A stretch of 59,389 bases of DNA from Pseudomonadota bacterium (GTDB lineage Bacteria > Pseudomonadota > Gammaproteobacteria > Burkholderiales > Burkholderiaceae_C), in contig JAVHYA010000027.1 of the NCBI GenBank assembly GCA_031119395.1, positions 1 through 59,389 of the forward strand, written 5' to 3'. Below the pieces are notes generated by a model that was not told the DNA's origin, made no database searches, and was given only the letters and a program-made list of their open reading frames with translations. Positions 20,015 through 45,400 of this stretch are shown here, one piece after another (the first letter of the stretch is position 1; each line of letters begins with the position of its first letter). Made by a program: the position numbers and the translations under genes.

Positions 20015-20033
20015 AGCCCGTGCGCCCCACGCC

Positions 20034-21275
20034 ATGACCCTGTCCACCACCGCCCCCCACTTCGCGCTGCCCCAGGACGCACCGCGCGCCGCCCGCACCG
20101 TGCTGGGCCTGCTGCAGCGCCTGGCGCACGGATCGCTCTCGGTGCAACTGCCCGATGGCCAGGTGCAGCACTTCGGCGCCGCGCCCGGCGCCCGGCCCAC
20201 GGCGTCGATGACGCTGCGCAACTGGACGGTCTGCGCCGCGGCGCTGAAGTCGGGCGACATCGGCTTCGCCGAGAGCTACATCGCCGGCGACTGGAGCACG
20301 CCCGACCTGCCGGCACTGCTGGAGCTGTTCATCGCCAACCGGCGCGCCGTCGAGGACGTGGTCTACGGCCGCTGGCTGGGCCGCCTGGCCTACCGCGTGC
20401 GCCACCTCCTGCAGCGCAACAGCAGGGCCGGCAGCGCCCGCAACATCCAGGCGCACTACGACCTGGGCAATGCCTTCTACCGCCTGTGGCTGGACGAGAC
20501 GATGAACTACTCGTCGGCCCTGTTCGGCGAGGACCGCAGCCAGCCGATGGCGCAGGCGCAGAAAGCCAAGGTGCGGCGCACCCTGCAGCTGGCCGGCGTG
20601 CGGCCCGGCGACCGGGTGCTCGAGATCGGCTGCGGCTGGGGCGCCCTGGCCGAGATGGCGACGACCGAATTCGGCGCCAGCGTGACCGGCGTGACGCTCT
20701 CGCACGAGCAGCTCGCCTTCGCGCGCGACCGGCTCGCCGGCCTGGGCGTGGGCCCCGAGCGCGCCGACCTGCGGCTGCAGGACTACCGCGACATCACGCC
20801 GCCCGCCGGTGCAGCCGGCTACGACGCGGTCTGCTCGATCGAGATGGTCGAGGCCGTCGGCCGCGAGTACTGGCCGACCTACTTCGGCGCCATCGCCCGC
20901 CTGCTCAAGCCGGGCGGACGCGCCTGCATCCAGAGCATCGTGATCGACGACGCCCTGTGGCCGCGCTACATCCGCTCGACCGACTTCATCCAGCAATACA
21001 TCTTCCCGGGCGGCTGCCTGCCCTGCCCGTCGGAGCTCAGGCGGCAGGCCGAGGCGGCCGGCCTGGCGCTGGTGGACGAGTTCGCCTTCGGCACCGACTA
21101 CGCCGAAACGCTGCGCCGCTGGCGCGACCGCTTCCTGGCCGAGCGCCAGGCCGTGCTGCAACTGGGTTTCGACGAAAGGTTCATGCGCCTATGGGAGTTC
21201 TACCTCGCCTATTGCGAAGCGGCCTTCACGCAGGCCAACATCGACGTGGTGCAGTACACGCTACAAAAACGATAG
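20034..21275 (+). CDS. cfa: Cyclopropane-fatty-acyl-phospholipid synthase family methyltransferase
   Basis: A 413-residue SAM-dependent methyltransferase acting on unsaturated acyl chains of membrane phospholipids. Diagnostic segments are NIQAHYDLGNAFYRLWLDE, MNYSSALF, the SAM-binding VLEIGCGWGALAEMA (about 197-211), SIEMVEAVG, and FPGGCLPCPSEL. Being embedded with the amine oxidase, DUF1365, DUF3833 and SDR genes, it may be the methylating enzyme of a furan- or branched-fatty-acid pathway rather than a stand-alone CFA synthase. Its last codons (YTLQKR) come from a dispersed repeat that begins at 21260. Confidence 0.9.
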   Translation: MTLSTTAPHFALPQDAPRAARTVLGLLQRLAHGSLSVQLPDGQVQHFGAAPGARPTASMTLRNWTVCAAALKSGDIGFAESYIAGDWSTPDLPALLELFIANRRAVEDVVYGRWLGRLAYRVRHLLQRNSRAGSARNIQAHYDLGNAFYRLWLDETMNYSSALFGEDRSQPMAQAQKAKVRRTLQLAGVRPGDRVLEIGCGWGALAEMATTEFGASVTGVTLSHEQLAFARDRLAGLGVGPERADLRLQDYRDITPPAGAAGYDAVCSIEMVEAVGREYWPTYFGAIARLLKPGGRACIQSIVIDDALWPRYIRSTDFIQQYIFPGGCLPCPSELRRQAEAAGLALVDEFAFGTDYAETLRRWRDRFLAERQAVLQLGFDERFMRLWEFYLAYCEAAFTQANIDVVQYTLQKR

Positions 21276-29989: not shown

Positions 29990-30036
29990 GCCGCTGAACC
30001 CGCGCGTGCGCCACGGGCGCGCGCGGCTGTCATGCA

Positions 30037-30069
30037 CGCCGCAGGGCCTGGCCGTCCTGCGGCGTTTTT
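30037..30069 (+). terminator. Rho-independent terminator
   Basis: CGCCGCAGG (30037-30045), 10-nt loop, CCTGCGGCG (30056-30064), then TTTTTC. This is the clearest intrinsic terminator in the window, ending the terC-hypothetical unit. Confidence 0.85.
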
Positions 30070-30107
30070 CTTTGCGCCAGCTCGCCCCGGCGCCGCTGCC
30101 GCGGCGC

Positions 30108-30120
30108 TATGCTGGCGCCA
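30108..30120 (+). promoter_or_regulatory. Possible leaderless -10 element of the holin-like gene
   Basis: TATGCT at 30108-30113 is followed six bases later by the ATG at 30120, with no Shine-Dalgarno between. Same layout as at purB. Confidence 0.4.
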
Positions 30121-30473
30121 TGCGACTGATCCTCAAATGGCTCCTGAGCGCGCTGGCCCTGCTGGCGGTGTCGTACCTCTACAGCGGCGTGCAGGTCACC
30201 ACCTTCACCCACGCGTTGATCGCGGCGGCGGTGATCGGCCTGCTCAACATGGTGGTGCGGCCGGTGCTGGTGGTGCTGACGCTGCCGGTCACCATCGTCA
30301 CGCTGGGCCTGTTCCTCTTCATCATCAACGCGCTGCTCTTCTGGGCCGCGTCGGGCCTCCTGAGCGGCTTTCACGTCAGCGGCTTCCTGGCGGCGCTGAT
30401 CGGCTCGCTGCTCTACTCGCTGCTGGGCGTGGTGATCGAGTCCGCGCTCGGCGGACTGTTCGCCCGCCGCTGA
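30120..30473 (+). CDS. Phage-holin-like four-helix membrane protein
   Basis: A 117-residue, strongly hydrophobic protein with four helices (LLSALALLAVSYLYSGV; ALIAAAVIGLLNMVVRPVLVVLTLPVTIV in parts; GLFLFIINALLFWAASGLL; FLAALIGSLLYSLLGVVIE). It matches the 4-TMS holin-like family (pfam04020) found in many bacterial chromosomes outside prophages. The true function is unclear, and the lack of phage genes around it argues against lysis. It converges on the NRPS gene with only 13 bp between stops. Confidence 0.85.
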   Translation: MRLILKWLLSALALLAVSYLYSGVQVTTFTHALIAAAVIGLLNMVVRPVLVVLTLPVTIVTLGLFLFIINALLFWAASGLLSGFHVSGFLAALIGSLLYSLLGVVIESALGGLFARR

Positions 30474-30486
30474 GGCACGGACACGA

Positions 30487-33400
30487 TCAGGCCGGCTGGG
30501 CGCTGTCCGGCCGCGCGATCTGGCGCATCGTCTCGAAGACCAGGCGCCGCGGCGCCACGCGCCAGCCCAGGCGCTCCTCGATGGCCAGCACGGCGCGCAT
30601 CGCCAGCAGCGAGTGCCCGCCGAGGTCGAAGAAGTTGTCGCCCGGGTGCACGTCGTCGACCCCGAGCACCTCGCGCCAGATGCCCGCGATCGCGGCCTCT
30701 TCCGCCGTGGCAGGCGCGGCCGCCACGCGCCCGGCACCGCCGTTAGGCGAGGCTGCGGGTGCGGGCAGGGCGTTGCGGTCGATCTTGCCGTTGGGCAACA
30801 AGGGCATCGCGCCCAGGCACACCACATGCTGCGGCACCATGTACTCCGGCAGGTGCAGGCGCAGGTGTTCGCGCAGCGCCGTCGCATCGGCCTGCGCACC
30901 GTCGCGCAGCACGGCGTAGGCCACGAGGCGCACGTCGTCCTCGCGCTCGCTGCGCGTGACGACCACGCACTGCGCGAGGGCGGGATGCTCGTTGAGCACC
31001 GACTCGATCTCGCCCAGTTCGATGCGAAAGCCCCGCACCTTGACCTGGTGGTCCAGCCGGCCCAGGTGCTCGAGTTGGCCGTCATGGCGCCAGCGGCACC
31101 GGTCGCCCGTTCGGTACAGCCGCGCGCCGGACGGGCCGCCCGGGCCATCGGGCACGAAGCGTTCGGCCGTGAGCGCCTCGCGCCCGTGGTAGCCCAGGGC
31201 CACGCCGGCGCCGCCGATGAAGGCTTCGCCCGGCACGCCGACGGCGCAGGGCCGCCCCTGGGGGTCGAGCACATGCACCTGCGTGTTGGCGATGGGCCGG
31301 CCGATCGCGATGCCGCGGCGCGGATCGCGAACCTGCCAGCAGGTGGACCACACGGTGGTCTCGGTCGGGCCGTACATGTTCCACAGCGCGCCGCAGCTGG
31401 CGAGCAGGCGCTCGGCCAACGCGGCCGGCAGCGGCTCGCCGCCGACCAGGGCGCGGAACCCCGGCCCGCCGGTCCAGCCGATGTCCAGCAACGCGCGCCA
31501 GGCCGACGGCGTGGCCTGCAGGGTGGTGATCTCGTGGCGCTCGATCAGCAGGCCGAGCTGCGACGGGTCCTGCACCTGCTCGCGGCTGGCGATGACCACC
31601 TGCGCACCCACGGCCAGGGGCAGCAGCAGTTCCAGCACCGCGATGTCGAAAGACAGCGTCGTCACGGCCAGCAGCCGGTCGCCGGCCTGCAGGCCCGGCG
31701 TGTGCGCCATGCTGACGAGGAAGTTGACCACCGCGCGGTGCGGCACCGCCACCCCCTTGGGCCGGCCGGTGGAGCCGGAGGTGTAGATGAGGTAGGCCGT
31801 GTCCTCGGGGCCGGCGTCGAGTGCCGGGTCGGCCGCCGGTGCCGCAGGGGGCATGGCCTCGAGCACACCCGGCGCCGCGATGTCGATCACCGGCACGCTC
31901 GATGCCCAAGGTACGCTGCCGATGTCCTCGCCGGCCGTCAACAGCGCAGTGGGTCGTGCGTCCTCGACCATGTGGGCCAGCCGCTCGCCGGGAAAGGCGG
32001 GATCCAGCGGCACATACGCCGCCCCCGCCCTGAGCACCCCCAGCATCGCGACCACCATGTGCACGTCGCGCGGCCCGCACAGGCCCACGCGGTGGCCGCG
32101 CGCGATGCCCCGGCGGCGAAGCAGGTGCGCGAGGGCATTCGCACGCGCCTCGAGCTCGCCGAAGCGCAACTGCCGGCCCCGGGCATCGATCAGCGCGACC
32201 TCGTCGCGTCGCGCGCGGGCGCCGACCTGGAGGTGCGCATGCACCAACGGGTGTGCAGGCAAGGCCACGGCTTGACCCTGCCACGACGCGACCAGGGCGC
32301 GTTCCGCGGGCGCGACGCTGTCGAGCGCCGAGATCGGCTGGCCGTCGTCGGCCTGCAGCAGGCCCTGCAGCAGCACGAGGTAGTTGTCCAGCAGCCGCTG
32401 CGCGGTCGCAGGCGTGAACAGGTCGGTGGCGTACTCGATGTGCAGACGGTGGCCGAACTCGGTATCGACGTGCAGCGACAGGTCGAACTGCGCCGCGACA
32501 CGGTCGAGCTCGAACTCCTCGTAGCGCAAGGGCACGGCGGGCAGCGGGCCGAGCGGCGCGTTGACGACGTTGAAGAGCACGCGCACCAGGCCATCGGGAG
32601 GCTGCGCGCGGTCCTGGCCCAGGGCCTCGACCAGTTCGTCGAAGGGCATGTCCTGGTGGTCGAAGGCGTCGAGCGCCGTGCGTCGCACGCGCTGCAGCAG
32701 TTCGCCCACGGCCGGGTCGCCCGACAGATCGGTGCGCAGGACCAGCGTGTTGACCAGCGTGCCGACCAGCGATTCGGCGGCCAGGGTGTGCCGGTTGGCC
32801 ACCGGCACGCCCACCGCGACGTCGGACACGCCGGCCTGGCGCGACAGCAGCAGCTGGAAGGCCGCCAGAAGCACCACGAAGGGCGTTGCCTGCGCCCGCA
32901 CGGCGGCCGTCCGCAGCGCCGACTGGAGTGCGGCCGGCAGGGGGGCCGAAACCTTGCCACCGCGAAAGCTCGGACGCGCCGAGCGCGGGAAATCGGTGGG
33001 CAACTCAAGCGCCTGCAGGCCGGCCAGCCGCGCGAGCCAGTGGCCGCGCTGCGCGGCGCGGCGCTCGACTTCGGCGGGCGCGTGCTGGTGCAGCGCGTGA
33101 TCGGCGTAGTGCACCGCCAGCGGCGGCAGTGCCGGCGCATGCCCGGCGACCCAGGCGGCCTCGCACAGGAGCAGCTCGCGCAACAGCACCGTCATCGACC
33201 AGTTGTCGGTGATGGCGTGGTGCTGCACCCAGAGCAGCGCATGGTCGTCGTCGGCCAGGCGCACCAGCGTCACGCGGTGCAGCGGGGCCTGCCGCAGATC
33301 GAAGGGCGCGGCGACACGTTCACTCAGCAGGGCCCGGGCCGCGCCTTCCCGCGCATCGAGTGGCGTCTCGCGCAGATCGATGCATTCGAAAGGCAACTCC

Positions 33401-35682
33401 ACGGCGGGCTCCACGACCTGCATCACCTGCCCCTGCTGCAGCGCGAGCCGCGTGCGCAGCGATTCGTGCCGCTGCACGAGCATCCGCAGCGCCTGCACCA
33501 GGCGCTCGGCGTTCAGCGGCCCCCGCAGGCGCAACGACAGCGCCACGTTGTAGGCCACGCTGTGCGGGTCGAACTGCTGGACCAGCCACATGCGGCGTTG
33601 CGAGAGAGACGCAGGCAGGGGCACGGCACGCGAGGCCGCAGGCACCTCCGCCACGCCGGGAGCCGCCTCGGGCAGGCGTTGGCGCACCTGCTGCGCGAGG
33701 CGTGCCACGGTGGGCACGTCGAGCAGCACATCCCAGGGCAGTTGCACGCCCCAGCGGTGCTGGATGCGCGAGGCCACCTGCGTGAGCAGGAGGGAGGTGC
33801 CACCGAGCTCGATGAAATGGGTATGGGTGTCGAAGCCTTCACGGCCCAGCACCTCGGCCCACATGTGCCAGAGCGCCTGCTCGACGGCGTCCACAGGCGC
33901 ACCGCCCTCACCGGCCTCGTCATGCAGCACGGCCAGCGGCGCCAGCGCGCCGGCAAGCCAGGCCTGCCGACAGCGACTGCGCTGGATCTTGCCGCTGGAG
34001 GTCCGCGGCAGCGCACCGCCACGCATCAGCGCCACGGCGTGCACGGGCACCTCGTGCGCCTGCACCACCGCGCGGCGCACGGCGCGCAGGATCGCGAGCT
34101 GCTCCGCGTCGGAGGACGCCCGGCCGCGCGCCTCCACCAGCACCACCGCGGCGTCGACGCCGGACGCGTCGACCGCGAAGGCGCAGGCATAGCCGCCGGT
34201 GCGCAGCTGCGGGTGGGCCTGCTCGGCCGTCCACTCGATGTCCTGCGGGTACAGGTTCTGGCCATGGACGATCAGCAGGTCTTTCAGGCGGCCGGTGACG
34301 AACAGTTCGCCACCCTCCACGAAACCCAGGTCACCCGTGCGCAGGAAGGGCCCGTCCCCGTCGGCCCGCCGCGCCTGGAAGGTGGCCGCGCTCTCTTCGG
34401 GGCGCCGCCAGTAGCCGGCGCCCACGGCCGCGGAGCGCACCCAGATCTCGCCCACGCGGCCGGCCGGACAGGGCACGCCGGTGGCGGGATCGACGATGCT
34501 CAGCGTCACCCCGGCCATGGGCGGGCCGCAGCTCACGACCGAGCGCACGGCGGTGGGCGACGCGGACGCCGCGGCGGCAACGACCTCGTGCCGGTGCAGC
34601 GCCTCGCCGTCGAGCCGCAGCGACCGCGCCGGCACGTCGACCGCACAGGCGGACACGCCGAGCACGGATTCGGCGAGGCCATAGGCCGGCGCGAAGGCGG
34701 CCGGCCGCAGGCCCGCGGGACCGAAGGCCTGCAGCAGGCGCCCGGCGGTGCTGGCGCGGATCGGCTCCGCGCCACAGGTGAGCGAGACGAGGCTGTCGAG
34801 GCGCCCCGACCATCCCGTGTCGGCGTGCTGGCGCAGGCAGGCCGCATAGGCCGACTCCGGCGCACCGGTGTGGGTGATGGCGAACGCGTCGACCGCATCC
34901 AGCCAGCGCAGGGGCCGGCGCAGGAAGCTCAGCGGCGACATCAACCAGGCAGGCGCGCCGCAGGCGAACGGCAACAGGATGCCCGACACCAGCCCGTAGT
35001 CGTGGAAATGGGGCAGCCAGTTCAGGGCACGGCTGGCGGCCGTGATGCCGAAGGCCGCGCCCAGCATGTCGAGGTTGGCCAGCACCTGGGCATGGGTGAG
35101 GCACACGCCCCGCGGCTCGGCGGTGGAGCCCGAGGTGTATTGCAGGTAGGCCAGCGCCCCGGCTTCCACGGCCGGCAGCGCCGCGACGGCGGTGGCACCG
35201 GCCAGGGCCTGGGGGGCGTGCCACGGCATTCCGGTGGGACCGAAGGCGTCCTGCATGGCGGGCAACGCCGACGCGTCGCACAGGCCCAGCGCGGCCGCTG
35301 CATCCTGGGCGATGCCCTGCAACCGCGGCAGCCCGCGCTGCAGGCGCGCGGCATCGAGCGCGGGCACCGGCACGGCGACCCGGCCCGCCAGCATGCAGGC
35401 CCAGAAGGCGCGGACGAAATCCAGGCCCGGGCGCAATGCCAGGAGCACGCGATCGCCAGGCCGCCCGTGCGCCGCCAGGCGTTGCGCCAGCGCGCGGGCT
35501 TGCTGATGCAGTTCCTGGAAGCTGAGCCGGTCGACGACGGACAGATCGTCCGCCACCCAGCTGACGGCCAGGGCAGCGCCGCCCTCGGCGCAGCGCGCGT
35601 GGAACAGCTCGACCAAGGTGGCGACGGGACGGGCGGCGGTCGAATCCGGCCGAGGAACAACGGCGGAAGGTGGCACGGTCAA
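30487..35682 (-). CDS. Orphan lipo-NRPS: FAAL-PCP-C-A-PCP, no thioesterase
   Basis: A 1731-residue single-module synthetase. A fatty-acyl-AMP ligase (about 1-590; LQYTSGST, WLPHFHDYGLVSGILLPF, LLIVHGQNLYPQDIE, SSGKIQR) would load an acyl chain on PCP1 (about 600-665; ELGGTSLL). The condensation domain (about 690-1120) has HHAITDNWS, with Asn where Gly is usual. The adenylation domain (about 1150-1650; LIYTSGSTGRPKG, YRTGDRCRW, NGKIDRNAL) gives the code D-I-L-Q-L-G-M-V-W-K, close to the glycine code DILQLGLIWK. PCP2 (about 1660-1725; DLGGHSLL) ends the protein; no TE or reductase follows. The TTG start at 35682 is uncertain; GTG 35676 is near. No MbtH, PPTase or exporter is adjacent. Predicted product is an N-acyl-glycine-type thioester released in trans. 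Confidence 0.9.
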   Translation of the reverse strand: MTVPPSAVVPRPDSTAARPVATLVELFHARCAEGGAALAVSWVADDLSVVDRLSFQELHQQARALAQRLAAHGRPGDRVLLALRPGLDFVRAFWACMLAGRVAVPVPALDAARLQRGLPRLQGIAQDAAAALGLCDASALPAMQDAFGPTGMPWHAPQALAGATAVAALPAVEAGALAYLQYTSGSTAEPRGVCLTHAQVLANLDMLGAAFGITAASRALNWLPHFHDYGLVSGILLPFACGAPAWLMSPLSFLRRPLRWLDAVDAFAITHTGAPESAYAACLRQHADTGWSGRLDSLVSLTCGAEPIRASTAGRLLQAFGPAGLRPAAFAPAYGLAESVLGVSACAVDVPARSLRLDGEALHRHEVVAAAASASPTAVRSVVSCGPPMAGVTLSIVDPATGVPCPAGRVGEIWVRSAAVGAGYWRRPEESAATFQARRADGDGPFLRTGDLGFVEGGELFVTGRLKDLLIVHGQNLYPQDIEWTAEQAHPQLRTGGYACAFAVDASGVDAAVVLVEARGRASSDAEQLAILRAVRRAVVQAHEVPVHAVALMRGGALPRTSSGKIQRSRCRQAWLAGALAPLAVLHDEAGEGGAPVDAVEQALWHMWAEVLGREGFDTHTHFIELGGTSLLLTQVASRIQHRWGVQLPWDVLLDVPTVARLAQQVRQRLPEAAPGVAEVPAASRAVPLPASLSQRRMWLVQQFDPHSVAYNVALSLRLRGPLNAERLVQALRMLVQRHESLRTRLALQQGQVMQVVEPAVELPFECIDLRETPLDAREGAARALLSERVAAPFDLRQAPLHRVTLVRLADDDHALLWVQHHAITDNWSMTVLLRELLLCEAAWVAGHAPALPPLAVHYADHALHQHAPAEVERRAAQRGHWLARLAGLQALELPTDFPRSARPSFRGGKVSAPLPAALQSALRTAAVRAQATPFVVLLAAFQLLLSRQAGVSDVAVGVPVANRHTLAAESLVGTLVNTLVLRTDLSGDPAVGELLQRVRRTALDAFDHQDMPFDELVEALGQDRAQPPDGLVRVLFNVVNAPLGPLPAVPLRYEEFELDRVAAQFDLSLHVDTEFGHRLHIEYATDLFTPATAQRLLDNYLVLLQGLLQADDGQPISALDSVAPAERALVASWQGQAVALPAHPLVHAHLQVGARARRDEVALIDARGRQLRFGELEARANALAHLLRRRGIARGHRVGLCGPRDVHMVVAMLGVLRAGAAYVPLDPAFPGERLAHMVEDARPTALLTAGEDIGSVPWASSVPVIDIAAPGVLEAMPPAAPAADPALDAGPEDTAYLIYTSGSTGRPKGVAVPHRAVVNFLVSMAHTPGLQAGDRLLAVTTLSFDIAVLELLLPLAVGAQVVIASREQVQDPSQLGLLIERHEITTLQATPSAWRALLDIGWTGGPGFRALVGGEPLPAALAERLLASCGALWNMYGPTETTVWSTCWQVRDPRRGIAIGRPIANTQVHVLDPQGRPCAVGVPGEAFIGGAGVALGYHGREALTAERFVPDGPGGPSGARLYRTGDRCRWRHDGQLEHLGRLDHQVKVRGFRIELGEIESVLNEHPALAQCVVVTRSEREDDVRLVAYAVLRDGAQADATALREHLRLHLPEYMVPQHVVCLGAMPLLPNGKIDRNALPAPAASPNGGAGRVAAAPATAEEAAIAGIWREVLGVDDVHPGDNFFDLGGHSLLAMRAVLAIEERLGWRVAPRRLVFETMRQIARPDSAQPA

Positions 35683-35725: not shown

Positions 35726-35899
35726 TCGAAGAAGAAGAGGGACGGAGGGCGGATGCGCGCCGGACGTGGCTCCGGCGTCGCGCGGACCGCTCGATATTAG
35801 TTCCTAAGTTCTAGTTTCCGTCAGAGGATGCCGCGCCGGGCACGTGAGATATGGCACGGACGACCCGCCCAAGGCGAAGGCGAGCGCCTACTGCGCTGC

Positions 35900-37489
35900 T
35901 CAGAGCGGCTTTTCGTTCATCTGCTCGCGCGCTTTCACGTCCACTTCGCGCGCACGGGTGTCGATGATCGATGCCTCGTAGTGGTCGATGCGCAGCGGCC
36001 CGCGGCCATCGGCATTGGCACGGACCAGTTCCTGCGCCGCCTTGAAGCGGTCGCGTGCCGCCACGTAGTCGAGGATGGCGACGTTGGCTTCGGCGTCGGC
36101 GCGGATGGCACGCAAGGGGTCACCCTGCTCGTTGTAGAGCGCCGACAGCATGCGCCAGGCGCCGTTGTCGCGCGGGTGCGTCGCGACCCAGTCGCGCAGG
36201 GGCGCGGTCATCGGGCCGGGGTTGTGGGTGGCGATGGCGGCCTGGGCCGCGAGCATCATCTCGGCCCGGTCCTTGGCCTTGGTGTTCAGCAGCGCCGCCG
36301 CCGCCGGGCCGTTGCGGGCCGCGAGTTCGATCTCGGCCGAGAGCAGCCGCGCCAGCCGCGACGCGGCCGCGTCGCCGCGGGTGCGCGCCACCAGCCGCTC
36401 GGCCAAGGCGCGGGCGCTGCGCGCGTCGCGCAGCTCCGACGCGCTCAGGGCGGCGGCGTAGAGCGTGCCGGCCTGCTGGGCCGGCGAGGTCTTGGCGAAT
36501 TCGCTGCTGTCGGCCGCCTCGACCCACTGTCGCAGCACGTCGACGCCCGGGCGCGTGAGCACGCGGGCGCGGGCGCTGATCATCGCGTGGTCCATCGCCA
36601 GCGGCAGCGGGGGCACGGCCTCGGCGCGGAACTGGAAGCGCGCCTGCATCTCGGTGATGCGCTCGCTGGTCAGCGGGTGGCTGCGCAAGTAGGGGTAGGC
36701 GCCGTTGTCGTTCAGGCGCGAGGCGAACTGCAGCCGCTCGAACATGCTGGCCGCGCCGCGCGGCGAGAAGCCGGCCTGCGTCATGACGCCGTAGCCGATG
36801 CGGTCGGCCTCGCGCTCCATGTCGCGCGAGAAATCGAGCTGCTTCTGCTGCGCGAAGGCCGAGCCGCCGGTCATCACGGCGGCGCCCAGGTCGCCGCCGC
36901 TGCGGCTCTTCGAGGCCGCGACCGCGCCGAGGATCATGGCCGCGATGAGCCACGGCGCCTGCCGGCTCTGCTGCGTCAGCATGCGCGAGATGTGGCGCTG
37001 GGTGACGTGCGACAGCTCGTGCCCCAGCACGGCGGCCAGCTCGTCGCGGCTGCCGACCACGGCGATCAGCCCCATGTTCAGGCCCAGGTAGCCGCCGGGC
37101 AGCGCGAAGGCGTTGATCGTGCGGTCGTGCCCGAGCAGCACGGTCCAGGCGTAGCGCTCGTCGAGCTCGGGCGTGAGCTCGCCGCGGGTGCGCGCCGCAG
37201 CCATCAGGCGCTGCCAGATCTCCTGCACGTAGTCGACCACCACCGGGTCGTCGACGTAGTCCGGGTCCCGGTACAGCTCGCGGGCGATGCGGTCGCCGAG
37301 CTGGCGCTCGGCGGTGGCGGTCATCTCGGCGCCATCGCTCATGCCGGGCAGCACCTGGGCGCGTGCGGCGGGCACGGCGAGCAGCTGCGACGCTATCAAA
37401 GCGATAGCTGTCAGCGCCCGCCAGGCGGGCGTTTCAGGCCGATTCGGCTTGGAGACTCGATGGAGGGAAGAGGGCGGGCGGTGGGTCAA
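35900..37489 (-). CDS. Periplasmic M48 metallopeptidase with TPR-like tail (BepA-like)
   Basis: A 529-residue exported protein. The TTG at 37489 follows AAGGA by 7 nt and is the best start; no ATG precedes the signal. The signal peptide ([23 protein letters not shown]) is encoded partly by a dispersed repeat. The peptidase domain has the zinc motif [12 protein letters not shown] (HExxH) and the third ligand in MEREADRIG. The C-terminal half is helical and TPR-like. The architecture matches BepA/YfgC, which degrades or assembles outer-membrane beta-barrel proteins. It is divergent from moaC, 61 bp away. Confidence 0.88.
37392..37452 (+). repeat. Dispersed repeat copy encoding part of a signal peptide
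   Basis: It reads GCTATCAAAGCGATAGC, GCGCCCGCCAGGCGGGCG and CCGATTCGGCTTGGA. Read on the minus strand it gives [20 protein letters not shown], the start and hydrophobic core of the M48 peptidase signal. Confidence 0.85.
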
Positions 37490-37550
37490 GCAGCGGTCCT
37501 TGTCGAACGTCCGGGCCCGTATGATGCGCTCCCGCCCGCTTCGTTCACCC

Positions 37551-38039
37551 ATGCCGACGTCTCCGCTCACCCACTTCGATGCCCAGGGCCAGGCCCACAT
37601 GGTCGACGTGGCCGCCAAGCCCGCCACCCACCGCGTGGCCGTCGCCACCGGCGTCATCGAGATGCGGGCCCAGACGCTGGCGCTGATCGAGTCGGGCAGC
37701 GCCAAGAAGGGCGACGTGCTGGGCGTCGCGCGCATCGCCGGCATCCAGGCCGCCAAGAAGACCAGCGACCTGATCCCGCTGTGCCACCCCCTGGCCCTCA
37801 CCCGCGTGGCCGTGGCCTTCGAGACCGCCGCCACGCCCGTCGCGCAGGTGCGCTGCACAGCCACCGTCGAGACCGTCGGCCCCACCGGCGTCGAGATGGA
37901 GGCATTGACCGCGGTGCAGGTGGCGCTGCTCACCGTCTACGACATGTGCAAGGCGGCCGACCGCGGCATGACGATCACGGGGGTGCACGTGGTCGAGAAG
38001 CACGGCGGCAAGTCGGGCAGCTGGGTGGCCGGCGCCTGA
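37551..38039 (+). CDS. moaC: Cyclic pyranopterin monophosphate synthase
   Basis: A 162-residue enzyme of molybdenum cofactor synthesis, converting the MoaA product (3',8-cyclo-GTP) to cyclic pyranopterin monophosphate. Conserved blocks are [34 protein letters not shown] and [15 protein letters not shown]. Length fits the family. The start at 37551 follows a short leader; TATGAT at 37520-37525 is a candidate -10. No other moa gene is adjacent. Confidence 0.95.
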
Positions 38040-38055: not shown

Positions 38056-39762
38056 TCAGTCCGCCGGCAGGCTGCCCAGCCAGCGCAGGTAGTCCTCCGG
38101 GTACGCGGCGCGAAAGCGCGTCAGCTGGGCCTGCAGCTCTTCGTCGGCTCCGAGGAGCGAGGCCGCCTGGATGCGCTTGACCACGACGCGCGGCTCCGGC
38201 GAGAAATGCAGCATGTCGCCGGCCAGGTCGTACATGGCCGCCGCGTTGCCGCGCGTGACAGGCGTGAGCGTGAGCTCGGCGAACTTCACGGCATCGCCGA
38301 AGAACCAGGAGCGGCCCCGCAACCGGTCGAGCGTGTGCTCGCGCCAGGCCGGCAGGCGCTCGGCGCGCGGCAGATACAGCTGGCTCACGCGGGTGTAGTC
38401 CCAGGCGACTCCGGCCAGGAATGCTATCGAAATCGTAGCGGTCAGCGCAGCCACGACGGGCGCAAACGGCCAATTCGGCTTGGAAACGGCGACGGGACGG
38501 CCCGGCCAGAGGAAGCCCAGGCACAGGCCGAACACCAGTTGGAACGGCGCGTACCAGAGCGGGTATTCGAGCAGGCTGTGAAGCACGATCACGCCCAGCA
38601 GCCCCCACACCATGATCCGCGCCGGATCGCGCTCGGCCCACGGCCGCGCCCGCAGCACCATCCAGAGGAAGCCGCCGCAGATCGCCACGGCCGCCGGGAT
38701 GCCCAGCGTCACCGCCAGGTGCAGCGGCAGGTTGTGTGCGTTGTCGAGGATCTCGACGAAGCGCTCGCCGGCGTACAGGTGGCTGTAGTGCGCGTAGCTC
38801 AGCTCGCCCCAACCCCAGCCGCGCCAGGGGTGCTGAGCGATCAGTTCGAGGACGTTCTGCCAGAGCACGAGCCGCCCGTGGCCCGGCGGGGCGCCCTCGC
38901 GCAAGCGCGACACCATGCCTTCGACGTTGCCGCTGGCCAGGCGGGGGAGGAGCCAGGCGGCCGCAGCGTACAGCGGCAGCAGCGCCAGCACGGCCGAGGG
39001 ACGCGCCAACCGGGGACCGTCCTGGGGCGCGGTTCGGCGCTGCCGGCTGCCCAGCCAGGCGGCGGCGCCCACGATGCAAAACAGCTGGAGCAGCCCGGTG
39101 CGCGAGGTCGATGCGGCCAGCCCCATCACCAGCCAGGCCGCGGCCGCGGACCACAGCAGCCGCGCGCCGCCCGATCCACGCGCCTGCAGCCAGAGCACCG
39201 CCACCAGCCCCAGGGCACACAGGGTGGCGAACTGGTTGCGCTGCCGCAGGTTGCCGTAGGCCATGCCCAGGGGCTCCGTCGGAACGGCGCTCCAGGGCTG
39301 CAGCCAGGCCGCGTGCCCGAAGTACTGGGCCAGGCCGAACAAGACGCTGAGGCATGCCGCCCATGCGAGGCCGCGGCCGACGGCAAGGGATCGCTCGACC
39401 GCCAGCGCGTGCGGCTGAGCGACGGAGCGGCCGGCGAGGAAGGCGCAGCCGACGACGAGCAGCGCCCCCGCGATGCCCCTGCCCGTCGGTCCGACGAAGG
39501 TGATGGCCGCCAGCAGCACGGCGCAGATGCCCAGCACGCCCCACGCGCGGCCGCCTTGCTGGCCATCGCCTGCCGCCAGGGCGAGCAGCACCGCGCAGCC
39601 GGCGCCCCAGAGTGCTTGCCAGGCACTGCTCACGGGTCCGGCCGCGAGCGGGAACAGGAAGGGGGCTCCCACCAGCAGGGTCAGGGCGAGGCGCCGGGCA
39701 CTCTGCGCGGTACCGGGCGCTGCAACCGCGGCGATCAGCACGCCTGCGCGCCGGTCCGACAA
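38056..39762 (-). CDS. PglL/TfpO-type O-oligosaccharyltransferase (Wzy_C family)
   Basis: A 568-residue protein with about 12 TM helices. The Wzy_C-type periplasmic region contains WGWGELSYAHYSHLYAG and EILDNAHNLPLHLAVTLGIPAA, as in PglL/PilO ligases that transfer glycans to pilin. LRQRNQFATLCALGL in the central region is also typical. The cytoplasmic or periplasmic C-tail is helical. It is divergent from the minor-pilin operon, fitting a pilin-glycosylation role. One hydrophobic stretch (about residues 425-446, VAALTATISIAFLAG) is encoded by a dispersed repeat. Confidence 0.85.
   Translation of the reverse strand: MSDRRAGVLIAAVAAPGTAQSARRLALTLLVGAPFLFPLAAGPVSSAWQALWGAGCAVLLALAAGDGQQGGRAWGVLGICAVLLAAITFVGPTGRGIAGALLVVGCAFLAGRSVAQPHALAVERSLAVGRGLAWAACLSVLFGLAQYFGHAAWLQPWSAVPTEPLGMAYGNLRQRNQFATLCALGLVAVLWLQARGSGGARLLWSAAAAWLVMGLAASTSRTGLLQLFCIVGAAAWLGSRQRRTAPQDGPRLARPSAVLALLPLYAAAAWLLPRLASGNVEGMVSRLREGAPPGHGRLVLWQNVLELIAQHPWRGWGWGELSYAHYSHLYAGERFVEILDNAHNLPLHLAVTLGIPAAVAICGGFLWMVLRARPWAERDPARIMVWGLLGVIVLHSLLEYPLWYAPFQLVFGLCLGFLWPGRPVAVSKPNWPFAPVVAALTATISIAFLAGVAWDYTRVSQLYLPRAERLPAWREHTLDRLRGRSWFFGDAVKFAELTLTPVTRGNAAAMYDLAGDMLHFSPEPRVVVKRIQAASLLGADEELQAQLTRFRAAYPEDYLRWLGSLPAD
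38423..38486 (+). repeat. Dispersed repeat copy inside a coding sequence
   Basis: It has GCTATCGAAATCGTAGC, GACGGGCGCAAACGGCC and AATTCGGCTTGGAAA. On the minus strand it encodes SKPNWPFAPVVAALTATISI of the PglL-like protein without breaking the frame. Confidence 0.8.
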
Positions 39763-39919
39763 ACGGTGTGCGGGCCTGGACCGACGGCGTTTGCTTTATT
39801 CACAAAAATAAACATGATGAAACAATCGTCAGCTACTAGTTTGCAATGGTGTGCCAAAGCACGCCGACCGCAGCATGCAAGACGACGCCGGCAGACCGAG
39901 ATGCGTACCGGCATGACAG

Positions 39920-39940
39920 GCGTCTGCCCTTGCCAGACGC
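39920..39940 (+). promoter_or_regulatory. Leader hairpin upstream of the minor-pilin operon
   Basis: GCGTCTG (39920-39926), 7-nt loop, CAGACGC (39934-39940), ending 16 nt before the first start codon at 39957. An AT-rich stretch at 39791-39822 further upstream is the probable promoter region, with TTGCTT as a -35 candidate. Confidence 0.35.
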
Positions 39941-39956
39941 ATGGATCGAGGACGGG

Positions 39957-40448
39957 ATGAAAACACAGATGATGACGGCCGCGACGCGGGCGGGGCTGGG
40001 CGGCTTCACCCTGATCGAGGCCATGGTGGTGGTTTCGCTGGTCGCCATTCTTGCGGCGCTGGCGGCGCCTTCCTTCACGACGCTGGTTGCGAACCAGCGG
40101 GTGAACTCGTCCGCGCAGGAGCTGCAGACGCTGTTCCAGTTCGCGCGGGCCGAGGCGGTCTACCAGCGCACCCCCAGCACCGTGACGGCCACCGGCCAGA
40201 AATGGGAGGCCAAGGTCGGGGCGTCGGTGCTGCGGGAGACGGTACTGCCCGACGCCGTGACGGTGACGCCCGCCTCCGCCAATGGGGTCAGCTTCGACGT
40301 CACCGGCGCCGCCAAGCCGGCCGCCGGCAGCGCGCCGTACCTGGTGTCGGTGTCGGCCGCCAAGGCCTCGAGGCTGCAATGCGTCAGCGTGACGGGCGCC
40401 GGCCTGGTCCGCCAGGTCCGCAAGCTGTCCACCGAAAGCTGTTCCTGA
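39957..40448 (+). CDS. fimT: FimT/GspH-like minor prepilin
   Basis: A 163-residue type IV minor pilin. The class III leader ends at Gly16, with mature sequence FTLIEAMVVVSLVAILAALAAPSF; Glu5 is present (residue 21). The body fits FimT/GspH (LVANQRVNSSAQELQTLFQFARAEAV). GACGGG lies just before the ATG. It begins the operon fimT-pilV-pilW-pilX-pilY1-pilE. Two Cys near the C-terminus probably form the pilin-type disulfide. Confidence 0.85.
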   Translation: MKTQMMTAATRAGLGGFTLIEAMVVVSLVAILAALAAPSFTTLVANQRVNSSAQELQTLFQFARAEAVYQRTPSTVTATGQKWEAKVGASVLRETVLPDAVTVTPASANGVSFDVTGAAKPAAGSAPYLVSVSAAKASRLQCVSVTGAGLVRQVRKLSTESCS

Positions 40449-40470
40449 ACCCGCTGTGCCACCCATTGCC

Positions 40471-41010
40471 ATGCACGCCCCTTCCATGTCCAAGTCTTCC
40501 CGGGTCAGCGGCTTCGGCCTGATCGAGGTGCTGGTGGCCGTCCTGCTCGTGAGCATCGGCCTGCTGGGCGCCGCCGGCATGCACGTGCGAGCCGTCGAAT
40601 ACACCATGGACACCGAGCGCCGCCAGATGGCGGCCATGGTGGCGTCGGAGCTGATGGAAACCATGCGCAGCGACACCACCACCGTGCTGCAGGCCACAGG
40701 CGCCCCCAAGAGCGACCTGGGCGGTTACACGAAGGCGAAGGACGCCGCCCTGCCCACGGTGACCACCGCCGACTGCATGCCGCTGAGCAGCGACCCGGGC
40801 AAGCGCCTGGGCTGCTGGGGCGTGCGTGCCAAGCGCGTGATCCCCGAACTGCCCGACGCGCTGATCACCAGCGCCTTCACGGTCGGGGTCGACGCGACGA
40901 CCAACGTGGTGGCCATCACGGTGGCCTGGCCCGTCAAGAAGGGCCAATGCCTGAACGCAACCGGCAATGACGATGACTACTGCACCTACACCCTGCGCTC
41001 GCGCCTCTGA
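40471..41010 (+). CDS. pilV: Type IV pilus minor pilin PilV
   Basis: A 179-residue prepilin: leader to Gly14, then FGLIEVLVAVLLVSIGLLGAAGMH, matching PilV (GLIEVLVAxLxxSIGLLGxA). Glu5 is conserved. Start choices are ATG 40471, ATG 40486 or GTG 40456; none has a strong ribosome-binding site. The end overlaps pilW by 44 nt. In other species PilV, W, X and Y1 form the priming complex that starts pilus assembly. Confidence 0.88.
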   Translation: MHAPSMSKSSRVSGFGLIEVLVAVLLVSIGLLGAAGMHVRAVEYTMDTERRQMAAMVASELMETMRSDTTTVLQATGAPKSDLGGYTKAKDAALPTVTTADCMPLSSDPGKRLGCWGVRAKRVIPELPDALITSAFTVGVDATTNVVAITVAWPVKKGQCLNATGNDDDYCTYTLRSRL

Positions 41011-41875
41011 CCCGGGCGCGCGCCGCGCCCGCAGCACCGACCAGCGAGGCATCTCGCTGGTGGAGATCATGGTGGCGATGGCCATCGGGCTGGTCATCGT
41101 GCTGATCGCCACCACGGTCTACACCCAGGGCGTGTCGAACTTCAGCTTCCGCACGGGCCAGAGCGAGAACCTCGGCAACAGCCGCTACGCGCTCGACACG
41201 ATCGAGGCGGCCTTCACCAAGGCGGGCTATCGCCGCGACCCCACGCAGAACATGAAGCTCGCGTTCCCGGCCAATGCGACGGCCTACAAGAACGGCTGCC
41301 AGTTCGCCGCCGGCGAGGCCATCAAGGTCCCCAGTGTCGGCGTGCTGTGCATCCGCTTCCAGGCGCGGGACAAGGACGAGAAGGACTGCGCGGGCACCGC
41401 GGCCGGCATCAACAGCCTGGCGGCCTACGAGGCGCCGCCGGCGCCTGCCATCGGCGCCGGCATGTTCGTCGAGAAGTACTTCGTCGCCACCACCAGCAAC
41501 GAGAAGTCGCTGGTCTGCCTGTCGGGCAACCAGGACAAGGACACCGAGGCAGGCACGCCGGTGGCCGATCGCGTGAGCGGCGTGATCTTCGAATACGGCG
41601 TGGGCAAGGCAGCGGTGGACGACGACTCGATGGCCGAGCGCAAGGTCGAGAGTTACACCCGGGCCGTGCCGGCCGCCGGAAACGTCGTGCGTGCGCTTCG
41701 CTACAACCTGCTGTTCTCCAGCACGGTAGGCGGGCTGAGCAGCGCCGGGGAGTCCACCGTTTGCGACCGTTGGAAGCAGCTGAGCGACACCGCCAACACC
41801 GACTGCGACACCGCCAGGGGCCAGCTCTACCAGGTCGCCAGCGGCTCGCTGATGTTGCGGAACCTGATGCCATGA
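40967..41875 (+). CDS. pilW: Type IV pilus minor pilin PilW
   Basis: A 302-residue prepilin with leader ending at Gly28 and mature sequence ISLVEIMVAMAIGLVIVLIATTVY; Glu5 is residue 33. The length and the RYALDTIEAAFTKAGYRRD block match PilW. It overlaps both neighbours (44 nt with pilV, 4 nt ATGA with pilX), so the operon is translationally coupled. Several Cys pairs are typical. Confidence 0.88.
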   Translation: MTMTTAPTPCARASDPGARRARSTDQRGISLVEIMVAMAIGLVIVLIATTVYTQGVSNFSFRTGQSENLGNSRYALDTIEAAFTKAGYRRDPTQNMKLAFPANATAYKNGCQFAAGEAIKVPSVGVLCIRFQARDKDEKDCAGTAAGINSLAAYEAPPAPAIGAGMFVEKYFVATTSNEKSLVCLSGNQDKDTEAGTPVADRVSGVIFEYGVGKAAVDDDSMAERKVESYTRAVPAAGNVVRALRYNLLFSSTVGGLSSAGESTVCDRWKQLSDTANTDCDTARGQLYQVASGSLMLRNLMP

Positions 41876-42456
41876 ACGACTTTTCGATGCACCGCATGCG
41901 CAGAATGCCGCCGCGCCGCGGCCAGCAGGGCGCCGCCCTCTTCGTCGCCATGATCATGGTGCTCCTGCTGCTGGTGATCGCGGTGGCGGGGATGCGCACG
42001 GTGACGCTGGAGTCGCGCATCGGCGGCAACATGCTGCAGAGCCACAACCTCCAGGAGACGGCCGACGGGACCCTTCGCGAGGGCGAACGGACGATCCAGG
42101 CGTTTGGCATCTCGCTGCAGCCCTGCGCCAGCGGCGCCAAGTCGCCGGTGACCGGCGGCAAGCCCTGCTTCATCTCCGAGGCACGGGCCGACACGAATGG
42201 GCTCAAGACCACGTTCACGGTCAGCGCCAAGGCGACGGGCTTCGACATGCCGAAGGGCTACTGGTATCCGCGCTACATCACCACACAGTGCCCCAAGGGC
42301 GCCAGCGCCACCGCGGCCCTGGAATCGGCAAACACCGGCTGCACCGAGTTCTACGAGGTCAACTCGCAGGCCACCCTGTCCAAGTCCGACGAACCGCAGG
42401 CCTGCGGGCCCGATGCGCTGTGCCTGCGCTCGTCGATCAACCTGTTCATCAAATAG
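41872..42456 (+). CDS. pilX: Type IV pilus minor pilin PilX
   Basis: A 194-residue PilX-like protein. The N-terminal QQGAALFVAMIMVLLLLVIAVAGM is the PilX_N segment, which lacks the usual Glu5. ESRIGGNMLQSHNLQETADGTLREGE follows, as in the family. The start overlaps the pilW stop (ATGA). PilX bridges minor pilins and the PilY1 adhesin in the tip complex. Confidence 0.86.
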   Translation: MNDFSMHRMRRMPPRRGQQGAALFVAMIMVLLLLVIAVAGMRTVTLESRIGGNMLQSHNLQETADGTLREGERTIQAFGISLQPCASGAKSPVTGGKPCFISEARADTNGLKTTFTVSAKATGFDMPKGYWYPRYITTQCPKGASATAALESANTGCTEFYEVNSQATLSKSDEPQACGPDALCLRSSINLFIK

Positions 42457-42472
42457 CCCGCCGAGGAAACGC

Positions 42473-45400
42473 ATGATGGTGAAGACCTCGATCCAAGACC
42501 GGCCCACGTTCAGGGCCTTCCATGCCGCGGGCCTGCTGATGGCGGCCGTTGCCCTGTTCGCCGGCCAGCATCTGGCGAACGCACAGGTCACGACCGAGAG
42601 CGCGCTCGCGCAGACGCCGCTCTTCGTGAGCCAGGGCTACCCACCGCTGAACATGCTGGTGATGGGCCGCGACCACAAGATGTACTACGAGGCGTACAAC
42701 GACGCCTCGGACCTCGACGGCGACGGTGTGATCGACGTGGGCTACAAGCCCGACAAGATCGACTACTACGGCTACTTCAACAACAACGCCTGCTACACCT
42801 ACGACAACGACATGTTCAGGCCCGTGGCTGCCGCCACCGGCACGAAGAAGAAGCAGTGCGACGGCACCAAGTGGAGCGGCGACTTCCTGAACTACCTCAC
42901 CACCTCGCGCATGGACGCGATGCGGCGGGTGCTCTATGGCGGAACGCGCAACGTCGACACCGCCAGTTCGACGGTGCTGCAGGGTTCGTACATCCCGCGT
43001 GACGCCCACAGCTGGGGCAAGGCCTACGACTTCGCCCGCGACGGCACGGTGTACCGGATCCAGGATTACGCGCCGCTGGCCAAGCCGGTGGACAACACGC
43101 GCCACCTGTTCGCCGTGACCACCACGGGCGAAAGCGGCGACGGTGCCATCCCGCTGCTGCGGGTACTCAACGACTCCAAGTTCCAGATCTGGGAGTGGGT
43201 GTCCAAGGAACAGCCGGTGGCCCAGGACAAGTGCATCGACAACGGCACGAACTGCGAACAGGGCGCCAGCTCGCAGTACGAGATGCTGACGGCAAGTTCC
43301 TTCCAGAACCTCAGCATCACCACGTGGAAATGGAGCGGATCCATTCCAGGCAACGTGACGGACATGAACGCGCGCTTCCTCGCCAGCGCGCTCCTGGGGA
43401 ACCGTTGCGGCACGGGAGGCGTGAGTGTCATCAACACCACGGGCCCCAACAACAACCCGTTTGCCGGAAGCAACGGCTGCACGAACGACAACTACTTGAC
43501 GCTGATCGCGGGCAATGTCTACATCCCCGCCGCCGGCACCTATCGCTTTGCGGTCGACGGCGACGACGCCGTGGACTTCACGATCGGGAGCACGACCGCC
43601 AGCTGGTACGGCGGCCACGCCAACAACCGCAGCCAGGACAGCCTGGCGAGCCACTCCAACAGCTTCACCTTCACCACTGCCGGCTGGCAGCCCTTCGTGT
43701 TCCGCCATGTCGAAGCCACAGGCGACGACAACTGGGGCCTGGCGATGCAGATCACCCGGCCAGCCAGCGCGATCACCGACCGGAAGATCCGCGTCGAGGC
43801 CTGCGTCGGCACCGATGCCGCGCTGCGCGAGGACACCTGCAAGCCGTATCAGAACGACGCCGGCACGATCGTCTACAAGCCCACCGGCCTGCTGCACGAC
43901 TTCGGCGAGAACGAGAAGATGTACTTCGGCCTGCTCACGGGCTCGTACCAGAAGAACATCGCCGGCGGCACGCTGCGGCGCAACGTCAGCAAGTTCACGT
44001 CGGAAGTGAATCCCAAGACGGGCCAGTTCATCACGCCGGCCGATGGCAAGGGCATCGTGGCCAACATCGATGGCCAGAAGGCGATCGGCTTCAACGGCTC
44101 CACCTACAACAACTGCGGCTGGATCACGGACGGCCCGATCAGCGGCAAGTCCGACCCGTCGATCTGCGCGATGTGGGGCAACCCGATGGCCGAAATGATG
44201 TTCGAGACGCTGCGCTATTTCGCCGGCGCGAGCGCGGCGCATCCGACGTACGACTACGGCAACGGCTCGAGCAAGGACAAGGACCTGGGCCTGTCCAAGC
44301 CTGACTGGAAGCCGCCCTACTCCTCCTCGACCGGTGGTGGCGGTTACCTGCAGTGCGCCCGCCCCGTGATGACGGTGCTCAGCGACATCAACCCCTCCTA
44401 CGACTCGAAGATTCCGGGCAGCCGCTATAACTCGGTGGCGATCAACGCGGCAGACCTCGGCGCGTTCGACGTATCGAGCGAAGTCGATGCGATCGGCAGC
44501 GCGGAGGCCATCCACGGCAACAAGTACTTCATCGGCCAGTCGACCACGAGCAACGCGGATGCGGCACCCACGGTCAAGACGGTGGACGCCCTGTCGTGGG
44601 TGCGCGGCCTGTCGCCGCAGGAGCCCAGCAAGGAAGGCACCTACTACGCCGCGGGCGTCTCGCGCTACGCCGCCAACAACTTCCTGTTCGGAAACGCCAA
44701 GGGCAAGAACCGCCTGATGACCTACTCGGTGGCCATCGCGTCGCCGTTGCCGGAGATCCGGTTCCCGGTGGGTGACGGCCGCTTCGTCACCATCGCGCCT
44801 TACGCCAAGTCGGTGACCGGCAGCAACATCGACAACACGAAGTTCGCGCCGACCAACCAGATCGTGGACTACTACGTCGACCGCATCGCCAACACCGGCG
44901 CGGCCGACAAGGACACGACGGTCAACGGCGGGCGGCCCTATGCCGAGTTCCGGATCAACTACGAGGACGTGGAGCAGGGCGCCGACCACGACATGGATGC
45001 GATCTCGCGCTACACGGTCGCGCTGCAGGCCGACAACACGGTGAAGATCGACATGGTGTCCGAGTACGCAGCAGGCGGCATCGGCCAGCACCAGGGCTAC
45101 GTCATCTCGGGCACCACGAAGGACGGCATGTACCTGGACGTGCGGGACAAGGACACCGCATCGGTGTTCTACGCGCTCAACACGCCGCAGGGACGCGACC
45201 CGGGCTACTGCGTCGGCCGCTCGACCGATTCCGAGTGCATCAACCTGGGCCTGACGTCCAGCCGCGTGTTCACGCCGAGCGCGACCAGCAGTTCCGGCAC
45301 CTTCCTGAAGAACCCGCTTTGGTATGCGGCCAAGTACGGCATGCCGGGACGCGACCCGAGCACCGTCACGGGCGACCCCGACAACTACTTCCTGGTCACC

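Follow-up and report, generated by a model that had tools for sequence, protein, structure and literature searches.

The window (the whole stretch of 59,389 nucleotides that was analysed) encodes a monomodular lipo-NRPS that we read, with slightly more confidence than doubt, as the part of a split assembly line that makes acyl-glycine, the rest being encoded at a distant locus. The tie to the second locus is comparative: each of the 18 carrier genomes examined has a partner NRPS gene (as a variant in G255, at contig ends in G410 and G312, and in part in G378), and the last carriers of both lines, neither of which has a thioesterase (TE), bear the same helix signature.

The lipo-NRPS gene and its insertion site

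The gene is an exact minus-strand open reading frame whose Pfam matches (AMP-binding and PP-binding twice each, Condensation and AMP-binding_C) bear out the FAAL-PCP-C-A-PCP layout of the original prediction, which had also read the A-domain code D-I-L-Q-L-G-M-V-W-K and the C-domain motif HHAITDN correctly (Table 1). Its start codon is uncertain, being a TTG in a frame where a convincing ATG is absent. The top four NCBIfam models best placed in the first domain are all fatty acyl-AMP ligases (FAALs), with lead scores of 426 and 425 bits that fall below the whole-protein cut-offs of 600 and 775, and the 18 PDB matches of this domain include FadD23, FadD28 and FadD32, the best one being deposited as 'polyketide synthase'; by these matches the domain appears nearer to FAALs than to acyl-CoA ligases. 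The elongation module is complete, with Pfam C, A and PCP domains and the core motifs (HHxxxD, those of the A domain and GGHSL), and has Asn in place of the last Gly of HHxxxDG. For release, Pfam found neither a TE nor an R nor a terminal C domain, and 13 residues follow the last carrier; by its domains, the lipo-NRPS does not class as a complete stand-alone NRPS.

Table 1. Features of the lipo-NRPS and its insertion site, with positions in the window.
Feature	Position	Strand	Remarks
Monomodular lipo-NRPS FAAL-PCP-C-A-PCP	30487..35682	(-)	1731 aa from TTG; without release domain
Fatty acyl-AMP ligase domain, residues 22-585	33928..35619	(-)	Pfam, NCBIfam and PDB matches
Carrier 1, residues 590-670	33673..33915	(-)	GGTSL type; without xLxQ helix
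Condensation domain, residues 690-1129	32296..33615	(-)	Pfam
C-domain motif HHAITDN	33202..33222	(-)	HHxxxDN clade-wide
Adenylation domain, residues 1155-1640	30763..32220	(-)	Glycine-like code DILQLGMVWK
Terminal carrier, residues 1655-1731	30490..30720	(-)	13 residues from carrier match to protein end
Terminal-carrier helix signature RRLVFETMRQIA	30514..30549	(-)	xLxQ class; common to the partner gene's last carrier
M48 (BepA-like) protease	35900..37933	(-)	One border of insertion site; functional link not thought likely
PF04020 membrane protein	30006..30473	(+)	Opposite border of insertion site; functional link not thought likely
Upstream region, two Xenophilus-conserved blocks (CCATATCTCACG; ACTAGAACTTAGG.ACTAA)	35797..35854	(-)	Possible promoter/operator

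In PMC12283262, DILQLGMIWK is reported as the code of Gly-activating domains, and the code of the lipo-NRPS agrees with it at 9 of 10 positions, which places the A domain, as far as its sequence goes, with the glycine-type Stachelhaus codes. Since the two codes differ by one residue and some relatives combine these domains with a Pfam thioesterase, an N-acyl-glycyl thioester is our best guess for the product. The original prediction had proposed this thioester together with its release by an unknown partner; the former stands as a guess, whereas the latter now has a candidate in the operon described below. The product may, as that prediction also suggested, serve as a small lipid signal or membrane lipid. 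Part of the clade carries another code, DPLQLGIVWK (L014, L016, L075, L116, L166). The nearest solved structure of the C-A-PCP part is linear gramicidin synthetase LgrA, whose second module we take to accept glycine.

A scan of 19 neighbouring proteins found no further NRPS gene, and of 57 genomic matches to the protein, the gene itself is the only one on the window's contig. The original label of an orphan is thus apt for the neighbourhood but not for the genome, given the distant partner gene of all 18 carriers examined. Its claim that there is no exporter needs correcting: the gene for an MFS-type transporter is found some 7 kb off, though nothing suggests a connection.

Contig 154 of a 5.1 Mb genome makes up the window, and the nearest named relatives of this genome, among the best 80 matches, are Xenophilus. 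Six of the 15 genomes of the genus, the window's included, carry the gene; its C-A-PCP part is 82-92% identical in the five congeners, where the open frames span 1765-1772 aa. Whole-gene dN/dS within Xenophilus is 0.17-0.23 and that of any single domain at most 0.35, so all domains are under purifying selection there, and together with the conservation among congeners these values argue that the lipo-NRPS is more than a product of chance. In the Xenophilus loci read, it sits between the M48 protease and PF04020 genes, and at all eight non-carrier sites read (8 of 9 non-carrier congeners were fetched, with G406 left out) these two genes abut, 19-166 bp apart, without an NRPS. Variovorax sp. N23 has the gene at the same insertion site, 57% identical, which may reflect either a single old gain followed by losses or a later exchange. 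The two upstream blocks are near-identical across five Xenophilus loci, and no other fetched locus matches them exactly, re-fetched copies aside; co-regulation through a common promoter motif was discarded, as the blocks were not found ahead of the partner operon. Xenophilus aerolatus (G399) carries two copies of the gene, the second being an HHxxxDN lipo-NRPS with code DPLQLGIVWK between thiolase and ClpB-like genes (L166, 9326-14461).

Two other loci of the window deserve mention. At 38056-47434, a PglL/Wzy_C_2-type oligosaccharyltransferase gene lies beside those of GspH, PilV and PilW-like minor pilins and PilY1, perhaps a pilin glycosylation and assembly locus judging from its gene content, and at 17808-21275 (+) amine oxidase-like, DUF1365 and cyclopropane-fatty-acid-synthase-like genes stand in series.

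The HHxxxDN clade and the distant partner operon

Relatives came from two sources, named genomes (best 80 matches) and a sample of 399 genomes drawn from the family. A tree was built by a quick method from 99 rows of glycine-type C-A modules (modules with an ILQ/PLQ/MPQ/IAQ-type code plus L002; L001, L010, L166 and most re-fetched loci were excluded). In it, all 18 HHxxxDN modules and one HHxxxDT row from a cut contig form a single group with an SH-aLRT of 100. The non-redundant HHxxxDN copies number 19, each ending without a TE, and are laid out as FAAL-PCP-C-A-PCP in 12 cases and as C-A-PCP-C-A-PCP in seven; with two kinds of front half ahead of a constant terminal module, the loading half seems to have been swapped while the terminal module was kept. 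Readings of HHxxxDN as a defect or as a mark of the FAAL donor were ruled out, since the motif is clade-wide and found also in copies with a C-A-PCP donor. The C-terminal tail measures 12-25 residues in this clade versus 37-59 in its sister clade and is so short that it offers no obvious docking part.

No other NRPS gene was seen within about 5-10 kb on either side of the HHxxxDN copies read, which occupy at least nine distinct gene neighbourhoods with no constant companion gene. Neighbours were called in all contexts, 20 of those around the copies at other loci being scanned with Pfam and more later, and the local candidates (a PLD-like protein, a peroxiredoxin, a BtuF-like protein, a thiolase and others) were rejected as belonging to one context or genus each. 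Two broad families recur, fam15 and the GT4-type glycosyltransferases of fam16, and are not counted as partners because each is found in 4 of 13 loci and in no fixed place.

Among the 399 genomes, 29 carry relatives: 17 TE-less ones (nine HHxxxDN, eight sister-clade), four TE-bearing ones and eight other NRPSs (G033, G241, G368, G091, G330, G119, G282 and G096). The TE-bearing relatives L128, L129, L105 and L111 all gave a Pfam thioesterase match when scanned (4/4). Their FAAL-PCP-C-A(Gly)-PCP-TE gene is the only condensation-domain gene found in each of the four genomes, which are likely, by gene content, to encode self-sufficient lipo-glycine synthetases.

The lipo-NRPS might work in the same way, as a self-sufficient N-acyl-glycine synthetase whose product would be freed slowly by hydrolysis or by a general type II thioesterase and serve as a lipid signal or surfactant, the other operon being incidental. 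The shifting neighbourhoods and the solitary TE-bearing relatives fit this, as does the one strong PF00975 match in G000, the genome searched for it, which lies in another cluster, on contig C78. We nevertheless consider such self-sufficiency unlikely, if by no means negligible: the partner NRPS gene accompanies every one of the 18 carriers, and the terminal carriers of the clade have an xLxQ helix that those of the four TE-bearing relatives lack.

The partner came from a condensation-domain search of the 18 carrier genomes, which in every case revealed a further NRPS locus containing two C domains. In G000 it is an operon on contig C89 (56636-71281) that encodes a C-A-PCP-C-PCP protein, an A-PCP-KS-AT-ACP-aminotransferase protein, an Sfp-type transferase and two alpha/beta-hydrolase-like proteins. 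The partner lies on another contig than the gene, or 0.25-1.4 Mb off on the same one (G412, G049, G244, G408). Its TE-less C-A-PCP-C-PCP core is found in 17 of the 18 carriers, with the A domain of G049 called in two pieces and G378 giving a partial read only, while the G255 variant ends in C-A-PCP; contig ends truncate the loci of G410 and G312. Upstream of the core, the subunit A-PCP-KS-AT-ACP-aminotransferase III occurs in 15 carriers, sometimes cut or split, and that of G255 gave no aminotransferase match. Sfp-type transferase and both hydrolase-like genes together adjoin the partner in 12 carriers, where they come after its C-A-PCP-C-PCP gene; in the three readable g50 genomes none of them was found next to it. 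Beyond the gene or genes and the partner locus, 13 of 19 carriers (the 18 of the search plus G402) have no C domains at the cut-off. The original prediction had set itself against a conserved TE/PKS partner in a known pathway, and here the outcome is divided: a conserved PKS-NRPS partner does exist, but neither a named pathway nor a published name for the operon was found in the literature searched.

Two ideas about the partner were abandoned. That of a sheath glycoconjugate led nowhere, and loading of the A-less partner module by the A domain of the lipo-NRPS is unsupported, A-less partners existing also without the gene (G322, G016). The A codes of the PKS-aminotransferase subunit follow lineage (L165, 9146-16282, and relatives), being either the Val-like DALWLGGTFK or DVQFMAQVVK, which we take to be Pro-like, and this subunit also occurs in Corallococcus and Pseudoxanthomonas loci. 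In G240 (L205, 1044-9125) it opens with a C domain, unlike the other complete copies called, and may from this layout have formerly taken an upstream chain.

Co-occurrence, terminal carriers and a candidate release route

We surveyed the 399 genomes for the C-PCP end of the partner at E<=1e-70 and found it in 24: in eight of nine HHxxxDN genomes, seven of eight sister-clade genomes and nine of 382 others. The ninth HHxxxDN carrier, below the cut-off, is G255 with its variant partner, and the sister-clade carrier without a partner at the cut-off, G308, has one extra C domain at a contig start. Fisher's test gives p = 4e-10 (8/9 versus 16/390), a value that ignores phylogeny, with genus g1 amounting to about one independent contrast. 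All four TE-bearing genomes lack the partner at the cut-off and have a single C domain each. Within the genus, the partner is present in 6/6 carriers and in one of nine non-carriers (G400), and the other eight non-carriers have no C domain (six) or one weak match (two).

Sister-clade genomes show gene and partner close together in six of eight cases, where the homologue adjoins the partner (G290, G129) or lies 13-53 kb off (G240, G032, G367, G005); in G371 and G308, the candidate pieces are on separate contigs. As most sister-clade homologues thus adjoin the partner or lie near it, the link looks like an ancestral operon from which the gene has since moved away, to judge from these layouts. 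The co-occurrence is confounded by shared ancestry, and the partner clearly can live without the gene: nine of the 24 survey genomes, as well as the congener G400, have it without an HHxxxDN or sister-clade gene. Conversely, the TE-less NRPSs of G119 and G282 belong to another clade, and these two genomes lack the partner at the cut-off.

Many ordinary carriers have a 'PT[VI]' helix start near the C-terminus. In its place, the terminal carriers of the two TE-less lines read RRLVFETMRQIA or similar, a helix of the form RRLxFExLxQxA. The xLxQ pattern, which was fitted after the sequences had been viewed and applied with carriers of a non-fitting core motif left out, matches 49 of the 80 terminal carriers with short tails and none of 122 non-terminal or long-tailed ones (0/86 before C, 0/22 before PCP, 0/14 before a long tail); a looser first pattern was less specific, matching 43/80 short-tailed terminal carriers and also 15/84 before C. 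In the HHxxxDN clade, xLxQ marks 18 of 19 terminal carriers (that of L075 is one residue off) and 0/19 internal ones, and in the partner 11 of 14 terminal carriers (two unparsed, one variant) and 0/14 internal ones; in this comparison, the four carriers whose core motif did not fit the pattern are two terminal ones of the partner and two internal ones of the sister clade. All nine partners read later carry the signature when the pattern is widened by one residue. An xLxQ-like carrier also occurs in another clade (L132 of G282), whose genome lacks the partner at the cut-off, and the common helix may reflect carrier ancestry, not a common enzyme.

It is conceivable that ancestry or ecology alone explains the link, the same lineages having inherited a gene and an operon that do unrelated work, as the confinement of carriers to few genera and the genomes that hold the partner without the gene would allow. 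We find this quite improbable, since TE-bearing and TE-less relatives differ in whether they have the partner, gene and partner share an operon or region in most sister-clade genomes, and the signature is confined to terminal carriers. That the lipo-NRPS serves the siderophore-like NRPS-PKS cluster on C78 of its own genome as an alternative loading subunit, as suggested by the paralogue L002 there (42% identical, likewise FAAL-PCP-C-A-PCP, and preceding a PCP-C subunit), is highly improbable, given that 13 of 19 carriers have no C domains beyond gene and partner, that most carriers lack a C78-like cluster and that L002 differs in its HHIVTDG motif, its code DIWHVSLIEK and its 48-residue tail.

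The two alpha/beta-hydrolase-like proteins of the partner operon, hydr1 and hydr2, are candidates for handling the chains. In hydr1, C-S-G is invariant in 14 proteins (as G-x-C-S-G in 13) along with one His, and in its AlphaFold model (pLDDT 79) the Cys closes a strand just ahead of a helix, as expected for nucleophile-elbow geometry in so far as the model holds. Its structure matches are alpha/beta-hydrolases generally, mainly esterases and lipases, and do not discriminate between hydrolase and transacylase; in other enzymes, a thiol nucleophile favours transfer over hydrolysis. At the elbow position hydr2 has G-x-R-x-G in 12 of 13 proteins and G-x-G-x-G in one, and looks catalytically dead by sequence because Arg or Gly replaces the nucleophile; its G-D-S-P-G near residue 70 aligns, in our reading, with a loop also present in hydr1 and is not the elbow. 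The hydr2-like proteins (L165, 2603-3415, and 12 relatives) form a set of conserved pseudo-hydrolases beside a Cys-type sibling. A hydr2 homologue is found in 18/18 carriers, one of nine non-carrier congeners and 0/4 TE-bearing genomes, and that of the four g50 carriers is 37-40% identical and lies on another contig or far from the partner.

Both proteins resemble the exosortase A-associated hydrolases 1 and 2 (TIGR03100/TIGR03101) but score below the cut-offs of these families, with 99.0 of 202.75 bits for hydr2 and 62.6 of 168.45 bits for hydr1. In G240, the sister-clade gene stands beside an XrtA polysaccharide deacetylase gene that scores above its cut-off, and in G215 the partner operon adjoins polysaccharide-export-type genes, the lipo-NRPS not being found there at the cut-off. 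A cell-surface polysaccharide theme is accordingly a lead.

In the split assembly line that we favour, the FAAL would load a fatty acid onto the first carrier, the C domain would join it to glycine on the second, and the N-acyl-glycyl thioester would wait there for the partner operon. We infer the hand-over from comparative sequence evidence, and the hydr1/hydr2 pair may act on both terminal carriers. By the favoured route, the hydr1-type thiol enzyme, aided by the nucleophile-less hydr2, would transfer the acyl-glycyl chain to an amine of the partner's product or to another acceptor. A more speculative proposal, which we rate as unlikely, makes RRLxFExLxQxA a carrier class that is read by a trans-acting Cys transacylase and its nucleophile-less sibling, which would join or transfer the chains of both TE-less lines, acyl-glycine and an aminotransferase-made amino chain, perhaps onto cell-surface polysaccharide. 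If true, chain fate in such a release system would be decided by a signature on the carrier instead of a domain in cis.

NRPS genes without a release domain or NRPS neighbours are easily dismissed as fragments, and with the comparative tie to a distant operon, cluster-based mining would miss half of such a pathway. The terminal-carrier signature offers a simple sequence test for lines whose release may occur in trans. For such a release enzyme, the Cys-type hydrolase paired with its nucleophile-less sibling provides a concrete candidate.

Relation to known systems

PvdL, which we take to be a FAAL-initiated NRPS, shares the FAAL-PCP-C-A-PCP order; PRK05691 is the best NCBIfam match of the lipo-NRPS (1278 bits against a cut-off of 4090), and PvdL chains are among the PDB matches. 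Unlike PvdL-type NRPSs, the lipo-NRPS has one module with nothing further in cis and lies outside a siderophore cluster. The FAAL-PCP-C-A-PCP-TE NRPSs of the next clade out (L128, L129, L105, L111, L055) have the same order and a glycine-type code but differ by their thioesterase (4/4 scanned, L055 left out), an HHxxxDQ motif, the absence of xLxQ in the four read and that of the partner (0/4). Sisters in the tree are the multi-module FAAL-...-Gly NRPSs L121, L122 and L123, which like the lipo-NRPS end in a TE-less glycine module and adjoin the partner (L121, L122) or lie in its region (L123), but comprise two or three modules and show HHxxxDE/Q/G motifs and tails 38-59 residues long. LgrA is presumably a dimodule that feeds a long line, unlike the lipo-NRPS. 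For the C-A-PCP part, it is the best solved relative (PDB 6mfz and others).

N-acyl amino acids of the stieleriacine type are made by single acyltransferase-type enzymes, not NRPSs. The likeness to the stieleriacines (PMC7293339) is that the lipo-NRPS would also make an N-acyl amino acid in a setting suggestive of surface polysaccharides. The evidence here for an exosortase theme comes from sister-clade loci and from hydrolases with weak scores. Bacterial glycine lipids (GlsB), described in PMC11631085 as products of N- and O-acyltransferases, have an N-acyl-glycine core in common with the predicted product, which the lipo-NRPS would make by a carrier-bound route. The two-locus arrangement was not found described in the literature searched. 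The parts are of known kinds; what is new is their distant arrangement at two loci with a matching class of terminal carriers.
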